Origin: Arthrobacter sp. APC 3897
Lineage (GTDB): Bacteria > Actinomycetota > Actinomycetes > Actinomycetales > Micrococcaceae
NCBI RefSeq assembly: GCF_030407495.1
Contig: NZ_JASDDG010000002.1
Coordinates: 62,001-126,000, forward strand
Direction: 5' to 3'
DNA length: 64,000 bases
In this document: positions 1,440 through 9,846 of the stretch, piece by piece
Layout of the letters: the number at the start of each line of letters is the position of its first letter
Position numbering within the stretch: position 1 is the first letter of the stretch
Program-made: the position numbers and the translations under genes
The notes under the pieces: generated by a model
Told to the model about the DNA's origin: nothing
Seen by the model: only the letters and a program-made list of their open reading frames with translations
Databases searched by the model: none

Positions 1440-3050
1440 GTGGCGGGGATTGGACGCAAAGGTGCCGGCCGGCAGGCGGACCAGGCATCGGGTCTGGGGC
1501 TGCTCCTCGACGAGGAACCGGAGCAGGCCCGGGAGCAGGACGTTCCCGCGCGCTCATCAGCCCGGGCAGGCGTCATCACTGTTTTCCAGCGCAACCGGAC
1601 GCTCTGGATTGTGGCCGCGGCCGCCGTTCTGAGCCTGATTGCCGGTCTGCTGCTGGGGCGGACGCTGATCGGGCCGGCTGACGCAGCAGGCGCGGCCGAG
1701 CCTCCGGCACCGGGTCTGGTGACCGTTCCCGTGCAGTTTGGCCAGCTCAGCAATGACGTGACCATCCGCGGGGAGGTGGCCTATGCGGACCCGGTGGAAG
1801 TGCGCATTGACACCACCTCCATCGCAGGCCCCGCCGTCGTGACGGGCCAGGTGCCGGACGTGGGAGCGGAATTCAAGCCCCTGTCGATAGCCCTTGAGGT
1901 TGCCGGCCGGCCCGTCATTGTCCTGCCCGGAGAACTCCCTGCCTACCGGACCCTCTCCCTCGGCGCATCGGGCCCGGATGTGGTCCAGTTCAAGACGGCG
2001 GTTCGGACCGTGGGAATTGACGCCGGAGATCCGTCCGACCCCGTGTTCGGTGCAGACGCAGCCAGCGCCGTCGCAACCCTCTACGCCACGGCCGGGTACT
2101 CGGTCCCGGAGTCGGCGGAGGGAAGCGCCGAATCCGTCCGCGCAGCACAGGAATCCGTACGAATGGCGGAGCAGGGTTTGTCCTCGGCCCAGAACGAACT
2201 GGCTCTGACGCCGGTGGGTGCAACACCCGTGGAAATCCGGGAGGCGGATAACGCTGTCGCCGCCGCACAGCGCGAGCTGACCGCCGCCCGGCAGGCCACA
2301 CCCCCGGATGCGCTGCAGATCGGCAACCTGGTGGATGCCCTCGAACTGGCTGAACTGCGCCGCCAGCAAATCGGCGCTGACCGGACCGATGCTCCGCAGC
2401 GGGCGGCAGTTGACGCCGCCGCGGTGCAGCTTGGGCAGGCACAGGAGGAACTGGTCCGCGCCGAGCAGGCGGCGCTGCCGTCGCTGCCCGCCGGAGAGGT
2501 GCTGTATCTGGCCCAGCTGCCCCGCCGGGTCGACACCGTCACCACCGAGCGCGGCTCCATCTTGGAGGGATCCTCCATGACGGTCTCCGGCGCAACTCTG
2601 GGACTGTCCGGATCCGCGGCGGAAGCCGATGCGCGTCTCCTTAAGGCCGGAGACAAAGCATCCTTTGACCTGCCGGACGGCACCGCGCACCCGGCCACCA
2701 TTACCTCTGTGGCGGCCGGCGAGGGAGACTCGGCGCGGTGGACCGTTCAGCTGCAGCCGGATCCCCTGGCCCCGGAGCAAATTTCGGAACTCCAGGGAAC
2801 CAACGTTCGCGTGTCGATCGCCGTCGGTGCCACGGACGGCGAGGTTTTGTCCGTCCCCTACGCGGCGCTCACTTCCGGGCCCGGGGGCGAAACCCGCGTG
2901 GAAGTGGTGGCGGGAGACCCCCGCGAGGGTGAACGGACGGCCACCCGTCTGGTGGTGGTCCGCAGCGGATTGGCGACTCCCGGTGCGGTGGAAGTCATCC
3001 CGGTGGAAGGAGAACTGGCCGAAGGAGATCTGGTTGTGGTGGGGACGTGA
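1440..3050 (+). CDS. HlyD/MacA-like efflux adaptor subunit with peptidoglycan-binding-like domain
   Basis: 536 residues. A cytoplasmic N-terminus of about 54 residues precedes one transmembrane helix (about 55-77). Outside are a barrel/lipoyl-like region, a segment resembling a peptidoglycan-binding domain around 160-220 (LGASGPDVVQFKTAV) and an Ala/Gln/Glu-rich coiled coil at about 230-345. The C-terminus is beta-rich. This is the order seen in actinobacterial adaptor proteins that partner MacB-type ABC exporters. The GTG start directly follows the lipoprotein stop, and the 3' end overlaps the ATPase gene by 4 bp (GTGA), which argues for translational coupling. The exported substrate is unknown; antimicrobial peptide or cell-envelope compound export is typical of the family. 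Confidence 0.85.
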   Translation: MAGIGRKGAGRQADQASGLGLLLDEEPEQAREQDVPARSSARAGVITVFQRNRTLWIVAAAAVLSLIAGLLLGRTLIGPADAAGAAEPPAPGLVTVPVQFGQLSNDVTIRGEVAYADPVEVRIDTTSIAGPAVVTGQVPDVGAEFKPLSIALEVAGRPVIVLPGELPAYRTLSLGASGPDVVQFKTAVRTVGIDAGDPSDPVFGADAASAVATLYATAGYSVPESAEGSAESVRAAQESVRMAEQGLSSAQNELALTPVGATPVEIREADNAVAAAQRELTAARQATPPDALQIGNLVDALELAELRRQQIGADRTDAPQRAAVDAAAVQLGQAQEELVRAEQAALPSLPAGEVLYLAQLPRRVDTVTTERGSILEGSSMTVSGATLGLSGSAAEADARLLKAGDKASFDLPDGTAHPATITSVAAGEGDSARWTVQLQPDPLAPEQISELQGTNVRVSIAVGATDGEVLSVPYAALTSGPGGETRVEVVAGDPREGERTATRLVVVRSGLATPGAVEVIPVEGELAEGDLVVVGT

Positions 3051-3724
3051 GTGTTCCCCTCCTGGAACTGCGTGATGTCACGAGGTCTTTTCCCGGACCG
3101 CCCGAAGTGCAGGCCCTGAAAGGCATCAACCTCACGGTGCAGCAGGGCGACTACGTGTCGATTGTGGGCCCCAGCGGCTCCGGCAAATCCACCATGCTCA
3201 ATATCCTTGGCCTGCTGGACCGGCCCAGCGTGGGCGAGTACCGCTTTGACGGCCATCTGACCGGGGTTCTGGACGAGGACATCCGGGCTGCCGTCCGAGC
3301 CCAGCGCATCGGGTTTGTTTTCCAGGCCTTTCACCTTATGCCGCGGCGGTCAGTTCTGGAGAACGTGATGATGCCCATGCTGTACAGCGGAACCCCGCGC
3401 GTGGAACGTGCCGACCGTGCCCGGGAGGCGCTTCAGCGCGTCGGTCTGGGCCACCGGATCGATTTCCTGCCCGGCACCCTCTCGGGAGGCGAACGCCAGC
3501 GCGTGGCTGTGGCACGCGCCGTCGTCACCCGCCCCAGCGTGCTCCTGGCCGACGAACCCACCGGCAACCTCGACGGCGGCACCACCCAGGATGTCATGGC
3601 ACTGTTCGAAGAACTGGTGACCGACGGGCTGGCCCTGGTCATCATCACGCACGATCAGGGGGTAGCCCGGCGCGCACCCCGGTGCGTCCGGATTGCAGAC
3701 GGAAGGGTGGTAACACCCGCATGA
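3047..3724 (+). CDS. MacB/LolD-type ABC transporter ATP-binding protein
   Basis: 225 residues, the usual size for a stand-alone MacB/LolD-like ATPase. Walker A GPSGSGKST is at 41-49, the Q-loop FQAF near 92, the ABC signature LSGGERQR at 145-152, Walker B VLLADEPTGNLD from 165 and a switch His in IITHDQG. It hydrolyses ATP to drive the permease encoded next. The GTG start overlaps the adaptor stop, and its own stop overlaps the ATG of the permease (ATGA at 3721-3724). All catalytic motifs are intact. Confidence 0.95.
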   Translation: MSVPLLELRDVTRSFPGPPEVQALKGINLTVQQGDYVSIVGPSGSGKSTMLNILGLLDRPSVGEYRFDGHLTGVLDEDIRAAVRAQRIGFVFQAFHLMPRRSVLENVMMPMLYSGTPRVERADRAREALQRVGLGHRIDFLPGTLSGGERQRVAVARAVVTRPSVLLADEPTGNLDGGTTQDVMALFEELVTDGLALVIITHDQGVARRAPRCVRIADGRVVTPA

Positions 3725-5013
3725 AGCTCGCCCGCGCCGTACGAGACCGCGCCCCCGCCGCTTCGCCGGCTGCAGGACTCCTTTCACCCGTTCCTTCCGC
3801 AGACCGCTTCAGCTTCATTGACCTGCTGATCGAGGCCACCTCCGACCTCGGAACACGGCCCGGCCGGCTCCTGATGACGCTGGCCGGAACCATCCTCGGC
3901 ATCGGAGCCCTGGTGGCCACCCTGGGCTTCGCCCAGACCACCGCCGGACAGCTGGCCAAACAATTCGATGCCTTCGCAGCCACCCAGGTCATCGCGTCTC
4001 CGGCCACGGCCCAGAACTCCGACGGCAACAGTGTTGCCACCGCTACCCTCCCCTGGGACGCTGTGGAACGCATGGAACGCCTTTCCGGAATTGAACAGGC
4101 AGCTTTGATCACGGAAGTGAAACTCCGTGAGGGCACCGTCACCGCGGTTCCCGTCAATGATCCTTCCGCACCCCTCACCGCACCGCCGCGGGTTTTTGCC
4201 GCCTCCCCCGGACTCATCGACACACTGGAGGGAACCGTCCTGCACGGCCGGCTCTTCGACACCGGACATGACCAGCGGCAGGACCGCGTGGCGGTACTGG
4301 GCAACCGGCTCGCGGACCGTCTTGGCATCACCCGGGTGGATTCCCAGCCGTCCATCTTCATTGACGGCCTGCCCTACGCCGTCGTCGGTGTCTTCGGCGA
4401 CATCCGGCAGCGCTCCGAGCTGCTGGAGAGCGTGGTCATCTCCACCGGCGCCGCCCGGTCAGACTTTGGCCTGGCCGCGCCGGGAGAGGTGCAGGCCCGC
4501 ATCGCCATTGGCGCCGGACCGCAGGTGGCTGAGCAGGCTGCCCTGTCCCTCTCGCCGGATGAGCCCGAACGCATCGACGTCGCCGCCCCGCAGGGAAGGT
4601 CCCAGCTCGCAGGCAATGTCCAGGCGGACGTCAACCTCATTTTTGTGGTGCTGTCCGTGGTGGTGCTTCTGGCCGGAGGCGTCGGCATTGCGAATGTGAC
4701 CATGCTTTCCGTCATGGAACGCACCGGGGAAATCGGCCTGCGCCGTGCCATCGGTGCCACCCGTCGGCAAATTGCCGCGCAGTTTGTCGCGGAGTCGGTC
4801 ATCATCGGGCTTCTGGGCGGGGTACTCGGCGCAGCCGCAGGGGTTTTCGCCGTCATCGGCATCTCCCTGTCCCAGCAGTGGACCCCCGTGCTTGACCCGC
4901 TGCCCGCCTGCGGCGGGGCGCTCCTCGGAGCGCTGGTCGGGCTCGTTGCCGGCGGGTTCCCGGCCCGCAAGGCCACGAGCATTGAGCCCGTCGCGGCCCT
5001 GCGGGGAGCCTAG
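3721..5013 (+). CDS. MacB-like ABC transporter permease (FtsX domain)
   Basis: 430 residues from the ATG at 3721, which overlaps the ATPase stop; an upstream in-frame start at 3682 lies inside the ATPase gene and is less likely. One transmembrane helix near residues 45-65 (LLMTLAGTILGIGALVATLGF) is followed by a large extracytoplasmic domain of about 220 residues. Three C-terminal helices carry the FtsX-type region with ANVTMLSVMERTGEIGLRRAIGATRRQI, the conserved coupling segment of MacB permeases. It completes the lipoprotein-adaptor-ATPase-permease operon and ends just before the convergent gldA. Confidence 0.92.
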   Translation: MKLARAVRDRAPAASPAAGLLSPVPSADRFSFIDLLIEATSDLGTRPGRLLMTLAGTILGIGALVATLGFAQTTAGQLAKQFDAFAATQVIASPATAQNSDGNSVATATLPWDAVERMERLSGIEQAALITEVKLREGTVTAVPVNDPSAPLTAPPRVFAASPGLIDTLEGTVLHGRLFDTGHDQRQDRVAVLGNRLADRLGITRVDSQPSIFIDGLPYAVVGVFGDIRQRSELLESVVISTGAARSDFGLAAPGEVQARIAIGAGPQVAEQAALSLSPDEPERIDVAAPQGRSQLAGNVQADVNLIFVVLSVVVLLAGGVGIANVTMLSVMERTGEIGLRRAIGATRRQIAAQFVAESVIIGLLGGVLGAAAGVFAVIGISLSQQWTPVLDPLPACGGALLGALVGLVAGGFPARKATSIEPVAALRGA

Positions 5014-5033
5014 CGCCGCCCCCTAAACGAACA

Positions 5034-6179
5034 TCAATGCGCCTTGTACGGCACCGGTTCCGGCAGCCCGGCCTCACTGCGCACCCGGCGGGAGAACCGT
5101 TCAATGGATTTCAGTGCGGCTTTGACGTCGGCCGGGCCAACGTCGAAGGGCATGGACTTCATCGTCTCGCCGGGGACAGTGGCGGCCTCCGCCACGAGGT
5201 CCAGTTCCCGCGCGTCGTCCACGGACAAACCCACCTCGGTGAGGGTGTTCGGCAGGCCCACTCGCGTGGTGAACTCCACAAAGTCACGAATCTCCGCCGT
5301 AGGAGCACCCTCCAGCACCAGCTGCGTCAGTGAACCGATGTTGACCTTCTGTCCGTGGGCCAGGCCGTGCGTCTGGGGTGCTGCGGTCAGTCCGTTGTGG
5401 ATGGCATGGGCTGCCGCCAGTCCGCCTGACTCGAACCCCAGGCCGGAGAGGAGGGTATTGGCTTCGATCACCTTTTCCAGCGCCGGGGTCACCAGGTTGT
5501 CCCGGACGGCGTCCAGTGCGGGAAGTGCGAACTCCCACAACACGTCCCAGCTCAGCCGCGCCAATGCGGTGCCGGTCTCGGTGGGCAGCCCGCCGGCCAT
5601 GGTCAGCGAGAAGGACGCAGCCGTAGCCCGTGCTTCCAGCCAGGTGGCCAGCGCGTCGCCTACCCCGTAAGCCAGGAAGGACGCCGGGGCGTTGGCCACA
5701 ATCTGCGAGTCCACCAGCACCAGGTCCGGGTTCCGGGTGAAGAACCGGTATTCCTCGAACGCTCCGTCCGCGGTGTAAACGACGGCGAGCGCCGACGTCG
5801 GCGCGTCGGTGGAGGCGACGGTGGGGACCGATGCCCAGCGGATTCCGGCCGCATCACCGGCGGCCTTGCACGCATCGATGGTGCTGCCGCCGCCCACCCC
5901 CACCACCACGTCAGCCTTGGCCGACCGGATGGCACCGGTCAGCCGGTCAATCTCCGCGGCCGTAGGCGTTCCGTTGAAGACCTCGCGGGTGAGCGGGAGT
6001 TCGGCAATCCGGAGGGAGGTGCCAATGTCATGCCCCACAAAACCCCAAACGACGTCGTCGGCCACCAGCAGGGGTGTCTTGCCAACCTGGCTGAGGAATT
6101 CACCGAGCCGGTGGATGGCGCCGGCGCCCTGCACATAGCGGCCGGGACTGATGACGGTACGTACTGGTGTCTGCTTCAT
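5034..6179 (-). CDS. gldA: Glycerol dehydrogenase (iron/zinc-containing alcohol dehydrogenase family)
   Basis: 381 residues. The family oxidises glycerol to dihydroxyacetone with NAD. Nucleotide-binding GGGSTIDACKAAGD, followed by PTVASTDAPTSALAVVY, is the GldA/dehydroquinate-synthase-like core. The metal site is represented by HAIHNGL and THGLAHGQKVNIG. The start MKQTPVR at 6179 has CAGGAG about 6 bp upstream and matches the family N-terminus; the frame is open further upstream without support. It is monocistronic, divergent from the umuDC operon. Exact substrate could be another small polyol. Confidence 0.87.
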   Translation of the reverse strand: MKQTPVRTVISPGRYVQGAGAIHRLGEFLSQVGKTPLLVADDVVWGFVGHDIGTSLRIAELPLTREVFNGTPTAAEIDRLTGAIRSAKADVVVGVGGGSTIDACKAAGDAAGIRWASVPTVASTDAPTSALAVVYTADGAFEEYRFFTRNPDLVLVDSQIVANAPASFLAYGVGDALATWLEARATAASFSLTMAGGLPTETGTALARLSWDVLWEFALPALDAVRDNLVTPALEKVIEANTLLSGLGFESGGLAAAHAIHNGLTAAPQTHGLAHGQKVNIGSLTQLVLEGAPTAEIRDFVEFTTRVGLPNTLTEVGLSVDDARELDLVAEAATVPGETMKSMPFDVGPADVKAALKSIERFSRRVRSEAGLPEPVPYKAH

Positions 6180-6329
6180 CGTGAACTCCTGGGGCGGTTT
6201 CGGAAACGGTGATTCGGGAACAGCAGCTGGCTGGTGCCAGCGTAGGGGGCCGTTTCCGCTGCGGCCAGACACAGTGGACATGAGCGGGCGGGCGCACGGA
6301 ATTTCGAGTGGATGCTACTCTGAGATCAT

Positions 6330-6345
6330 TCGAAGGTGTGTTCTA
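6330..6345 (+). promoter_or_regulatory. Candidate LexA (SOS) box upstream of umuDC
   Basis: The 16-mer TCGAAGGTGTGTTCTA matches the actinobacterial/Gram-positive SOS consensus TCGAAC-N4-GTTCGA at 10 of 12 fixed positions. It lies 13 bp before the GTG of the umuD-like gene, just upstream of AGGGAGG. Position and target make LexA repression likely. Confidence 0.62.
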
Positions 6346-6358
6346 GGGAGGTTGTGCG

Positions 6359-6790
6359 GTGCCCGTCTTTTCTTCCGCTCCCGCGCCGCATTCAGGCGGC
6401 GCGAAGGAGCAGCCGCCGTCCCGGGGTTCAACGCTTCCGGCCGGGTTCGCCTCCCCCGCCCAGGACTATTACGACGCCGGCATTGACCTGAACCGGCATC
6501 TGATCCGTGATGCCACCTCCACCTTCATCATGCGGGTCTCCGGAGACGCGATGGACGGAGCAGGCATCAGCGACGGCGACGAGTTGATTGTGGACCGGTC
6601 CCTGACACCCAAAGACGGCTCCGTCGTCGTCGCCGTGCTCAACGGAGAGCTGATCATTCGGCGGCTGCTGCTTACCGGGCAGGGGATCTTCCTGCACGCG
6701 GACAGCCCGGGTTCAAAGGACATCAGGGTGCCGGATCCGGCGGAGCTTTCCGTCTGGGGCGTTGCAACCCGGTGCCTTCACCATGTCTGA
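6359..6790 (+). CDS. umuD: UmuD-like S24-family protein lacking the Ser-Lys catalytic dyad
   Basis: 143 residues aligning along the whole of UmuD, the RecA-activated self-cleaving subunit of DNA polymerase V. The cleavage region is kept ([11 protein letters not shown], Ala28-Gly29), as are the flanking MRVSGDAM and [12 protein letters not shown]. However, the catalytic serine of the SGDSM motif is Ala64 (GCG at 6548-6550), and the catalytic lysine position is Arg101 (IIRRLLL). Self-cleavage is therefore not expected. The GTG start has AGGGAGG 7-8 bp upstream. It sits 26 bp before umuC behind a candidate SOS box. It may act as a fixed UmuD or UmuD'-like partner of UmuC; that is inference. Confidence 0.85.
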
Positions 6791-6816
6791 CGCGCCGCTG
6801 GAACACGAAGTGCGCC

Positions 6817-8103
6817 ATGGCTGAGCGGCACCGCATCGCACTGGTGGACGTCAACAGTTTCTACGTCTCCTGCGAGCGCGTCTTCGACCCCCGGCTGGCC
6901 GGCATTCCCGTGGTGGTGCTCTCCAACAATGACGGCTGTGTGGTGGCGCGTTCCGATGAGGCCAAGGCCCTGGGCATCAAGACCGGTGAGCCGTGGTTCA
7001 AGCTGGCCGAGGCTGCCCCGAAACTGGGGCTGGTGCAGCGCTCCAGCAACTATGAGCTGTACGGGGACCTGAGTTCGCGCGTGATGCAGCTGCTGTCCCG
7101 GTTCTCCTCCGAGCAGGAGATCTACTCCATCGACGAGTGTTTCCTGCACCTGCACGGCACCGACGATGAGCTGCGGGGCCGGGGCACTGACATCCGGGCT
7201 GCCGTGGCGAAGAATATTGGCCTGCCGGTCTGCGTGGGGATCGGCCCCACTAAAACCCTGGCCAAATTTGCGAACCGGATTGCCAAGCAGAATCCCCATA
7301 TGGGAGGGGTCTGCAACCTTGATGCCCTGGATCCCGCCGTCGTCGACACCATCATGTCCCGTGTCCCGGTCACCGGACTGTGGGGCGTGGGCTCCCGCAA
7401 CGGCACCCGGCTGAACGCGCTGGGCATCCACACCGTCGCAGATCTGCGGGACGCCGATCCGGCGGTCATCCGGGCTAAGTTTTCGGTGGTGCTGCAGCGC
7501 ACGGTGCTGGAGCTGAACGGCACTTCCTGCATTCCCATGGACACCGAGTCCGCGGATAAGCAGCAGGTCCTGTTTTCCCGCAGCTTTGCAACGCCCGTGA
7601 CAACGCGTGAGTCGATGCGCCAGGTCATGAGCCTGTACGCCCAGAAAGCGGCCATCCGGCTGGCCAGGGAGGGACAGCTGGCCGGGGTGATGACGGTCTT
7701 CGCCTCCACGTCACGGTTCAGCGGTACAGATGCGTCCTCGCCTTCGGCCACGGTCCGGCTGCAGCGGCCCACTGCGGATCCGCTGATGCTCACCCGGGCC
7801 GCGATTGACGCCATGGATCCCCGGATGGTGGAGGGTGCCCGGTATGCCAAGGCCGGGATCATGCTCACCGGCCTCTCCCCCGCCGGAGCCGAACCGGTGT
7901 TTGACCTGTTTGACGCCGGACCCGAGCAGAAGGACATCGGTCCGCTCCTGGCGAAGGTTACGGACAAGTACGGTGCCGCGAGCATTGGCCTGGGTCTGGC
8001 CGGGATGTCCACGGCAAAGCCGGACTGGACCATGGCGCGGAACTTCGCCTCGCCGCGCTACACCACGGAATGGTCGGACCTGCCGGTGGTGAAGGCCGTT
8101 TAG
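6817..8103 (+). CDS. umuC: Y-family translesion DNA polymerase, UmuC subunit
   Basis: 428 residues, close to the 422 of E. coli UmuC. Catalytic acidic residues are visible in [18 protein letters not shown] and YSIDECFL. The thumb has helix-hairpin-helix-like [20 protein letters not shown], a little-finger domain follows, and the C-terminal [20 protein letters not shown] matches the UmuC-specific DUF4113 tail. It copies past damaged bases during SOS induction. The ATG at 6817 was chosen over an upstream in-frame ATG that lies inside umuD. Co-transcribed with the umuD-like gene; its 3' end overlaps the convergent gene by 4 bp. Confidence 0.93.
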
Positions 8104-8468
8104 CGGTCTTTGCCGTCCACGGATTCCAAGACCGCATGTTCCGCCGCCCGGCCGGCTTTGACCGATGCCGCGATCACCAACCCCAGAGCAACCAGGCAGC
8201 AGGTCAGGGCGATGACGGCACCGGTTTCATCCGTAATGCCGGGAATCACCAGCGACAGAACACCGGCGAGTGCGAAGGCTGCACTCGAAGCATGCAGGAG
8301 AGGCCGTGCCGCACGGTGCCCGGCCAGCCATGCCTCTTCTGAATGGGCCACATAGCCCACCCAGAGTCCAACGGCTGAATTCACCCCGAGCTTGCCCCGT
8401 GCGGTTGCTTCCGCCGTCCAGGACACGGCTATGGCGGACACGATCAAGACTATTTCCAGTAACCCCAT
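8100..8468 (-). CDS. Small integral membrane protein, unknown
   Basis: 122 residues from ATG 8468 ([17 protein letters not shown]). Four hydrophobic segments are visible: the N-terminus, a segment near [31 protein letters not shown] and [19 protein letters not shown] charged tail follows ([17 protein letters not shown]). I do not recognise a family. It starts 10 bp after the PadR gene stop and may be the third gene of a unit with 8895-9338 and 8479-8892. The frame is open upstream to 8660, but that part overlaps the PadR gene. Confidence 0.6.
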
Positions 8469-8478
8469 GCGGGGGAGT

Positions 8479-8892
8479 CTAGCCGCGGGCTGCGCCGAGG
8501 CCGCTAATCCCCCCGGGCCGACCGTCCGCACCCCTGCCGGATTGGGGGTCCGAAAGCTCAACGAGACTGGCGGTGATTCCTGCCAGGAACTGTACGCCCA
8601 GGCCCGTGAGCGAGATTTCCTTGCGCTTGGCCCCGGTGCGCGGAACATCAACCTCCGCACTGTGCAGGAGTCCGGTGTCCTGCAGTCTCTTCAGAGCGCG
8701 GTAGAGACTGCGTTCGGTAATCTGCCAGCCGCTGGTTGCCGCAATGTCTGCTGCAACACTGGCCACGGTCACCGGTTGCCGCTCGGCGACCGCCCGCAGA
8801 ATGACCGGCGTCAGCATGGATTTCTTGTAAGTCTCCACCCAGGATTCAACCCGGGCTTCCACCCATTCCTGTTCCTCGCCGGGATGCGGCAC
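8479..8892 (-). CDS. PadR-type winged-helix transcriptional regulator
   Basis: 137 residues from a GTG at 8892, 2 bp after the stop of the membrane-protein gene. The segment TYKKSMLTPVILRAVAE, then ERSLYRALKRLQDTGLLHSAEV and RKEISLTGLGVQFL, is the PadR winged helix: helix, recognition helix and wing, followed by the ISLTGxG signature. These dimeric regulators often control the membrane protein or transporter beside them. The C-terminus is short, so this is a minimal PadR. No operator was identified. The target is probably its own operon (inference). Confidence 0.75.
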   Translation of the reverse strand: MPHPGEEQEWVEARVESWVETYKKSMLTPVILRAVAERQPVTVASVAADIAATSGWQITERSLYRALKRLQDTGLLHSAEVDVPRTGAKRKEISLTGLGVQFLAGITASLVELSDPQSGRGADGRPGGISGLGAARG

Positions 8893-8894
8893 GC

Positions 8895-9338
8895 TCAGTC
8901 CTCCCAGCCGCGGCCCAGCACGACGCCGGCGAGATGGATGAGAAGTCCGGCTCCCCAGGCGGCACTCATGACGAGGGTGGCGCCGAACCACGGCGTGGAC
9001 AGGAACTCTTGGGCAGCGGCGCCGTCCGCCGCACCAAGGGACAGTGTACGGATCACCGCGTGCAGGTTGAAGGATGCCGTTACGGTGACAAACGCAAGGG
9101 TGTGGGCGACGGCCGCCCCGAAACGGATCTTGGTGAGTGTCCGGTAGTTGCGCCAGGACCAGACGGTGATCCCGGCTGCCACGAGGGCGGTGAGAATCCC
9201 GGCGAGAAGCGTGATGTCCCCTCCGGCGAGGGCAATCACGGCTTGAATCGCCGCCATGGCGAGTACCAGAATCACCACATACGGCAGCAGCACCGACCGG
9301 GCATTGACAGGGGCATGAGGCAGGGCGTGTGTAGTCAT
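8895..9338 (-). CDS. Four-helix membrane protein, unknown
   Basis: 147 residues from ATG 9338 (MTTHALPHAPVNARS). Hydrophobic segments are visible at VLLPYVVILVLAMAAIQAVI, ITLLAGILTALVAAGITVW, FGAAVAHTLAFVTVTASF and GATLVMSAAWGAGLLIHLAGVVLG, giving a compact four-helix protein. It heads a unit with the PadR regulator (2 bp apart), a common arrangement in which PadR represses a small transporter-like protein. No family name can be given from the sequence alone. Confidence 0.75.
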   Translation of the reverse strand: MTTHALPHAPVNARSVLLPYVVILVLAMAAIQAVIALAGGDITLLAGILTALVAAGITVWSWRNYRTLTKIRFGAAVAHTLAFVTVTASFNLHAVIRTLSLGAADGAAAQEFLSTPWFGATLVMSAAWGAGLLIHLAGVVLGRGWED

Positions 9339-9423
9339 GTGCGGCACTGTACCAATGGGACACTACCTGTGGAAGAGGGATTCGGCAGATGTTCCGGTGC
9401 CGAAATCATGCGAGGCTGGTTGC

Positions 9424-9846
9424 ATGGACTTGACCGTGTTGCCCGGGCTCACGATTCCCGCGTCGGAACTTGCCTGGCGCTTCTCGCGCTCATCCGGCCC
9501 CGGCGGCCAGCACGTGAACACCTCGGACAGCCGTGTGGCGCTGTCCTGGAATGTGGCCGCTTCGACGTCGCTGTCGGATACCCAGCGGCAGATCCTGCTG
9601 CGGCGCCTCAAACGGCGCCTGATTGCGGGAACCGTCACCGTCACCGCGTCGGAGCAGCGCTCCCAGCTGCGCAACCGGGAGATCGCGCTGGCCAAGCTTG
9701 CGGAGCTCGTGGCGGACGGCCTCGCCCCGGAGTCCGCAGCCCGGCGGAAGACCAAACCCACCCGGGGCTCGAATTTCCGGCGCCTCGACGCGAAGAAGCA
9801 GCGCTCCGCCACCAAACGGCAGCGGCAGCGCCCTCCTGCGGATTAG
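9424..9846 (+). CDS. arfB: Alternative ribosome-rescue factor ArfB (peptidyl-tRNA hydrolase, YaeJ type)
   Basis: 140 residues, the same length as E. coli ArfB. The release-factor domain has FSRSSGPGGQHVNTSDSRV, with the catalytic GGQ at 27-29, and the C-terminus is the basic tail (RRKTKPTRGSNFRRLDAKKQRS) that enters the empty mRNA channel of stalled ribosomes. It hydrolyses peptidyl-tRNA on non-stop complexes. The ATG at 9424 fits the family start; the frame is open to 9337 without homology. It overlaps the convergent epimerase gene by 4 bp. Confidence 0.9.
   Translation: MDLTVLPGLTIPASELAWRFSRSSGPGGQHVNTSDSRVALSWNVAASTSLSDTQRQILLRRLKRRLIAGTVTVTASEQRSQLRNREIALAKLAELVADGLAPESAARRKTKPTRGSNFRRLDAKKQRSATKRQRQRPPAD

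Follow-up and report, generated by a model that had tools for sequence, protein, structure and literature searches.

In the textbook account, mutagenic polymerase V (Pol V) is kept waiting by the need to cleave UmuD and is released only when damage persists. In E. coli, as described in PMC3901139, this cut comes some 20-40 minutes after the SOS response begins, and mutagenesis stays off as long as UmuD is full-length. Lineages that lack the cleavage residues and have kept the gene ask directly what this delay is for. One such gene lies in the window analyzed here (the whole 64-kb stretch of DNA, from Arthrobacter sp. APC 3897), and it raises the question of what a UmuD with both catalytic residues replaced does once it is made. 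The features of the locus are as follows.

6330..6345, + strand: SOS (LexA-type) box TCGAAGGTGTGTTCTA, predicted by pattern match
6345..6351, + strand: ribosome-binding site AGGGAGG, 7 bases before the GTG, read from the sequence
6359..6790, + strand: umuD, predicted to be catalytically dead (Ala64/Arg101), from alignment to E. coli UmuD and from models
6359..6442, + strand: N-terminal arm, 28 residues, hydrophobic-poor, with a clade arm dN/dS of 0.29, from composition and dN/dS
6440..6445, + strand: Ala28-Gly29, position of the scissile bond, from alignment
6548..6550, + strand: Ala64, codon GCG, replacing the nucleophile Ser (E. coli Ser60), from alignment
6659..6661, + strand: Arg101, codon CGG, replacing the general base Lys (E. 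coli Lys97), from alignment
6817..8103, + strand: umuC, Y-family polymerase with catalytic residues intact, from models and a residue check

The umuD-umuC operon of the window

The umuD reading frame begins with GTG and encodes a protein of 143 amino acids, which scores 132.8 bits against the NCBIfam UmuD model NF007621, above its cut-off of 110. Peptidase_S24 is the only Pfam family matched at an E-value of 0.001 (76.2 bits), and of the solved structures E. coli UmuD is matched best, over residues 26-136. The dyad positions were read by aligning the window protein with E. coli UmuD from NC_000913, and the residues aligned with Ser60 and Lys97 are Ala64 and Arg101, as the initial annotation had claimed; its further description of a UmuD homolog with the cleavage region kept also agrees with the model score and with the Ala28-Gly29 pair. 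The Ser-Lys dyad of UmuD and of the S24 LexA/UmuD peptidases is therefore absent from this protein despite its Pfam S24 match, and the name "autoproteolytic subunit" carried by the model that it passes is probably wrong for members with Arg at the Lys site.

An SOS box, a strong ribosome site, and an intact umuC had likewise been proposed for this gene, and all three are in place. The box is the sole match to the SOS-box pattern in the 64 kb, where 0.05 would be expected, and it is kept, with one mismatch to TCGAA-N6-TTCGA, in all eight members of the window's clade. The umuC gene starts at an ATG 26 bases past the umuD stop codon, on the same strand, and its product is one of three Y-family polymerases in the genome. 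The only other PF00717 match in the genome is a 278-residue protein with Ser and Lys in place, which we take to be LexA-like because its N-terminal region, recognized by eye, is typical of LexA; its gene also has an upstream box of the same SOS type as that of umuD.

The surroundings of Ala/Arg and Ser/Arg umuDC pairs differ within the genus (window 2145-9831 vs. loci L035-L043). Flanks of the window over 2145-9831 are shared with L035 on both sides and with L036 downstream, and not with L037-L043. The gene directly before umuD on the opposite strand (5034-6281), presumably a dehydrogenase judging by eye, has no counterpart at that place in L035.

Conservation in the genus

UmuD was found in all 29 genomes of the genus. 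Taking the best copy per genome, Lys is replaced by Arg in 29 of 29 species, and Ser is also replaced by Ala in eight of them. Two genomes (G001 and G022) carry an extra UmuD copy on a second contig with both Ser and Lys present. Another, G019, which belongs to the Ala/Arg clade, has an additional UmuD-like fragment (C1:433030-433161, residues 18-61, E-value 1e-10) that stops short of the dyad and was left out of the counts.

A sequencing or assembly error was ruled out, as the eight species share Ala/Arg with differing synonymous codons (GCG or GCC for Ala; CGG, CGC, or CGA for Arg), and a pseudogene was ruled out by a core dN/dS of 0.049 in the window's clade. The initial annotation had named normal Ser and Lys codons, or a second normal UmuD in the genome, as findings that would overturn its reading; the codons are GCG and CGG, and no second UmuD was found in the 60-contig assembly, from which a plasmid could have been lost. 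The conserved dead UmuD that it had considered is borne out by the Arg and Ala counts of the genus together with the core dN/dS; that the window UmuD is conserved, and predicted to be dead, follows from the sequence.

Dyad states and their origins across the Micrococcaceae

At an E-value of 1e-20, UmuD is found in 226 of 395 Micrococcaceae genomes; at 1e-15, it is found in four of 394 genomes drawn from the class, three of these being Micrococcaceae. UmuD matches also turn up on plasmids of other actinobacteria, from the genera Curtobacterium, Rathayibacter, Microbacterium, and others. The dyad census covers Micrococcaceae genes: 221 distinct umuD genes read from 246 loci, in a sample picked by genus and by closeness to the window. 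The dyad is Ser/Lys in 130 genes, Ser/Arg in 55, Ala/Arg in 28, Gly/Arg in 6, Ala/Lys in 1, and partial in 1. The alignment of Micrococcaceae homologs, which the initial annotation had suggested, thus places Ala/Arg among the recurrent states and finds it conserved in the eight species of the window's clade.

Ser has been lost in 34 of the 89 genes with Arg (Arg-type) vs. one of the 131 with Lys (Lys-type). Among the 220 genes readable at the Lys site, Lys and Arg are the only residues found, and because this holds while the Arg codons vary, the site looks reused rather than drifting and seems still to want a basic residue. The one gene in which Ser is lost and Lys kept (L233) has one start codon with a ribosome site, an ATG that would leave almost no arm. 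As a baseline outside the family, 160 viral-contig loci (approximately 99 distinct UmuD stretches) were read, which are the best 80 matches per list, the first 80 being close to E. coli UmuD (79-82% identity); Ser is kept in all of them and Lys is aligned in 156, the other four showing a one-residue gap with an adjoining Lys.

The main tree was built from the UmuD core plus UmuC, with 75 hand-thinned rows and the dyad columns removed, and it requires at least six Ser changes and at least two Lys/Arg changes. A UmuD-only tree (220 rows) needs nine Ser and two Lys/Arg changes, and a UmuC-only tree (121 rows) seven and three. A single origin of the Arg type is rejected on the UmuD-UmuC tree (p-AU 0.0018), with the proviso that the pair may move between species. 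The window's clade falls beside the Ser/Arg Arthrobacter genes in the main tree, a placement that is weakly supported (83/76). Independent branch pairs are too few to test whether Ser and Lys change together.

The N-terminal arm and the cleavage site

The change in Arg-type proteins extends to the arm. Hydrophobic residues make up 0.407 of the 20 positions before the cleavage Gly in Lys-type proteins (n = 127), vs. 0.127 in Ser/Arg proteins (n = 55) and 0.122 in those that have lost Ser (n = 34); the p-value for this difference, 4e-32, is uncorrected for relatedness and hence overstated, as these are related sequences of one family. The Arg-type arm also varies in length. At the cleavage site, Ala occupies P1 in 123 of 127 Lys-type genes vs. 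19 of 89 of the Arg type. Two positions past the cleavage Gly, 127 of 127 Ser/Lys genes have Pro, which is Ala instead in 32 of the 89. The window's clade is the sole Ser-lost group that keeps Ala at P1, in eight of eight genes vs. none of the 26 Ser-lost genes outside it, and its site, TLPA-G, with the aliphatic Leu at P3, is close to those of cleavable relatives (SVPA-G and AVPA-G), with the following Pro lost. AlphaFold gives the arm low confidence in a cleavable homolog also, and the prediction thus does not separate the two types.

Selection was compared by Nei-Gojobori counts in eight genes of the window's clade, nine Ser/Lys genes, and eleven Ser/Arg Arthrobacter genes. In the window's clade, the core has a dN/dS of 0.049, the arm 0.290, and UmuC 0.078. 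The nine cleavable genes give 0.058 for the core and 0.089 for the arm, and the eleven Ser/Arg genes 0.114 and 0.281, their core being less constrained.

A probable UmuD'-like subunit

We favor, as the probable explanation, a cleavage-independent, UmuD'-like subunit that serves UmuC once induced, in a Pol V that has no post-translational lock. UmuD lineages in the Micrococcaceae would have given up self-cleavage: the general base Lys was replaced by Arg, in several lineages the nucleophile Ser became Ala or Gly too, and the hydrophobic arm of cleavable UmuD gave way to a tail in which Pro, Ser, Gly, and Ala abound. The strongly selected folded core is most likely the UmuC partner. With both the hydrophobic arm and the cutting residues lost, UmuD'-like action would be expected at once, so that the window UmuD would act like UmuD' from its synthesis onward. 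LexA would control that synthesis through the SOS box, the second lock timed by RecA (cleavage of UmuD) would be absent, and Pol V would then be limited by LexA and by the direct role of RecA. The sequences themselves show the substitutions with their conservation and recurrence, the altered arm, the intact UmuC, and the SOS box; from these we infer UmuD'-like action with UmuC, absence of cleavage in the cell, and loss of the delay between SOS induction and mutagenic synthesis.

Several observations pull against this explanation. With Ala at P1 and an aliphatic residue at P3, the cleavage site of the window's clade stays close to that of cleavable relatives; 55 of the 89 Arg-type genes still have Ser, a hint that some constraint remains; and the core of the Ser/Arg Arthrobacter genes is less constrained. 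A dead UmuD is also not automatically a UmuD', because E. coli UmuD S60A, which has the native arm, greatly lowers UV mutagenesis according to PMC3901139, and UmuD 18, an arm-shortened, non-cleavable form described in PMC5342242 as a partial UmuD' mimic, gave only low mutagenesis. The initial annotation had offered a permanently uncleaved UmuD as one option. Both catalytic residues are indeed gone, as that option holds; however, the arm has changed too, in composition, in length, at P1 in 70 of 89 Arg-type genes, and in dN/dS (0.29 vs. 0.089 in cleavable genes), and this points to a UmuD'-like protein.

In its stronger form, a UmuD locked in the uncleaved state would be a brake or checkpoint factor with UmuC, like E. 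coli UmuD2C, and mutagenic Pol V would never form. This is unlikely. The uncleaved state presumably depends on docking of the arm against the core, and the arm here is poor in hydrophobic residues, variable in length, and far less constrained than the core (dN/dS 0.29 vs. 0.049); moreover, all 75 Arg-type partners of more than 300 amino acids retain the UmuC catalytic residues D10, D105, and E106. What speaks for a brake is the missing dyad itself, and the finding in PMC3901139 that E. coli UmuD S60A, besides lowering mutagenesis, sensitizes cells to UV.

Removal of the arm in trans, by LexA, another UmuD, or an unrelated protease, may still apply to the window's clade, where the Ala28-Gly29 bond and the Leu at P3 are kept and would suit it. 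A LexA-like protein with Ser and Lys is encoded in the genome, and PMC5342242 describes cutting of E. coli UmuD S60A in trans when its partner has a working active site. We nevertheless consider this quite unlikely, given that no second UmuD was found among the 60 contigs, that the hydrophobic arm is gone, and that Ala is missing from P1 in 70 of 89 Arg-type genes, among them all 26 Ser-lost genes outside the window's clade.

The core might instead serve some other partner, such as DinB, RecA, or the replicase, with UmuC incidental. The 13 of 55 Ser/Arg genes that have no adjacent umuC on the stretch read would fit such a role, which is improbable given that 33 of 34 genes without Ser and 42 of 55 Ser/Arg genes have umuC next to them. 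In ten genomes with an Arg-type umuD and no nearby umuC, an orphan UmuD was ruled out in nine, where umuC follows 3 to 21 kb farther downstream along the same strand of the contig (eight genomes of genus g25 and one of g23, with loci including L177, L182, L186, and L189); in the tenth, G227, none was found at an E-value of 1e-60. Residual self-cleavage with Arg as the base, to which the Ser kept in 55 Arg-type genes would lend itself, is very improbable, since the window protein has no Ser at position 64 and hence no nucleophile, and P1 and the arm are changed in the Ser/Arg group too. Decay toward loss, which the two lost catalytic residues might suggest, is just as hard to credit against a core dN/dS of 0.049, UmuD in 29 of 29 genomes of the genus, and a retained SOS box and umuC.

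SOS boxes upstream of umuD genes

When up to two mismatches in ten positions are allowed, an SOS box precedes 54 of 55 Ser/Arg genes, 19 of 34 that have lost Ser, and 113 of 127 Ser/Lys genes, with 5, 0, and 3 matches in the respective shuffled sequences. The exceptions among Ser-lost genes include the A. ruber group, where none of ten genes (L034, L067, L084, L117, L143, L147, and L153-L156) has a box within the 480 bases searched upstream; umuD is possibly free of LexA control in this group. In genus g4, three of six genes have no box over the same distance, and two of the three matches lie 368 and 392 bases off.

Relation to known systems and significance

Two relatives bear on a UmuD that would act without being cut: the triple mutant UmuD 3A of E. 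coli (T14A L17A F18A) is reportedly non-cleavable, a result attributed to Beuning in 2006, and HumD of phage P1 is said to be UmuD'-like, to need no cleavage, and to have no arm. The window UmuD reaches 67.7 bits against the HumD model NF051876, below its cut-off of 120. The arms of UmuD 3A bind the core weakly, and PMC5342242 describes it as considered a UmuD' mimic; the window protein is a candidate for similar action, but UmuD 3A is a laboratory mutant, whereas the state seen in the window is natural, conserved, and arose more than once. E. coli UmuD/UmuD' of Pol V resembles the window in core sequence, umuC operon, and SOS box, and differs in having Ser60 and Lys97 where the window has Ala and Arg, and in the hydrophobic-poor arm of the window protein. 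YolD/YqjX of Bacillus offers a parallel in arrangement, in that this small subunit has an unstructured N-terminal arm and accompanies a UmuC-like polymerase induced by SOS (PMC12926913, PMC6511836), although it belongs to an unrelated sequence family and the Pfam YolD model is not matched by the window UmuD. UmuDAb of Acinetobacter, also related to UmuD, has taken on another role, that of a repressor that needs its N-terminal domain for repression according to PMC4807011; that long extra domain is absent from the window protein, which has 28 low-complexity residues before the core. A 2026 survey covers Pol V and YqjW-YqjX types, and the part of it that was available holds nothing on dead UmuD (PMC12926913); among the literature matches listed, as far as their available portions go, no report of a natural dead UmuD in Micrococcaceae was found.

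The Arg-type UmuD proteins are candidate natural UmuD' mimics with their own polymerases, and 11 genomes offer Arg-type and Ser/Lys copies side by side. On a wider scale, and more tentatively, it is possible that Micrococcaceae have more than once dispensed with the post-translational switch that defines Pol V. UmuD, once a self-cleaving timer, would in independent lineages have become a small subunit without proteolytic action, in a convergence on the design of YolD/YqjX that would leave transcription as the sole lock, and perhaps not even that where no SOS box was found.

Minor observations on arm sequences

Direct synthesis of UmuD' by initiation at an ATG placed at the cleavage point was considered for the window and rejected, as such an ATG occurs in other lineages and is absent from the window's clade. 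Eight loci (L199, L201, L206, L211, L217, L224, L225, and L230) have an in-frame ATG exactly at the cleavage position (Met-Gly), from which the UmuD' part could be translated directly; none of the eight has a recognizable ribosome site there. Near the N-terminus of otherwise soft arms, a V-F-S or V/M-F-G motif occurs in the window (6359-6373) and in L011, L112, L173, L177, and L201, and this motif, found in several Arg-type lineages, may bind something.
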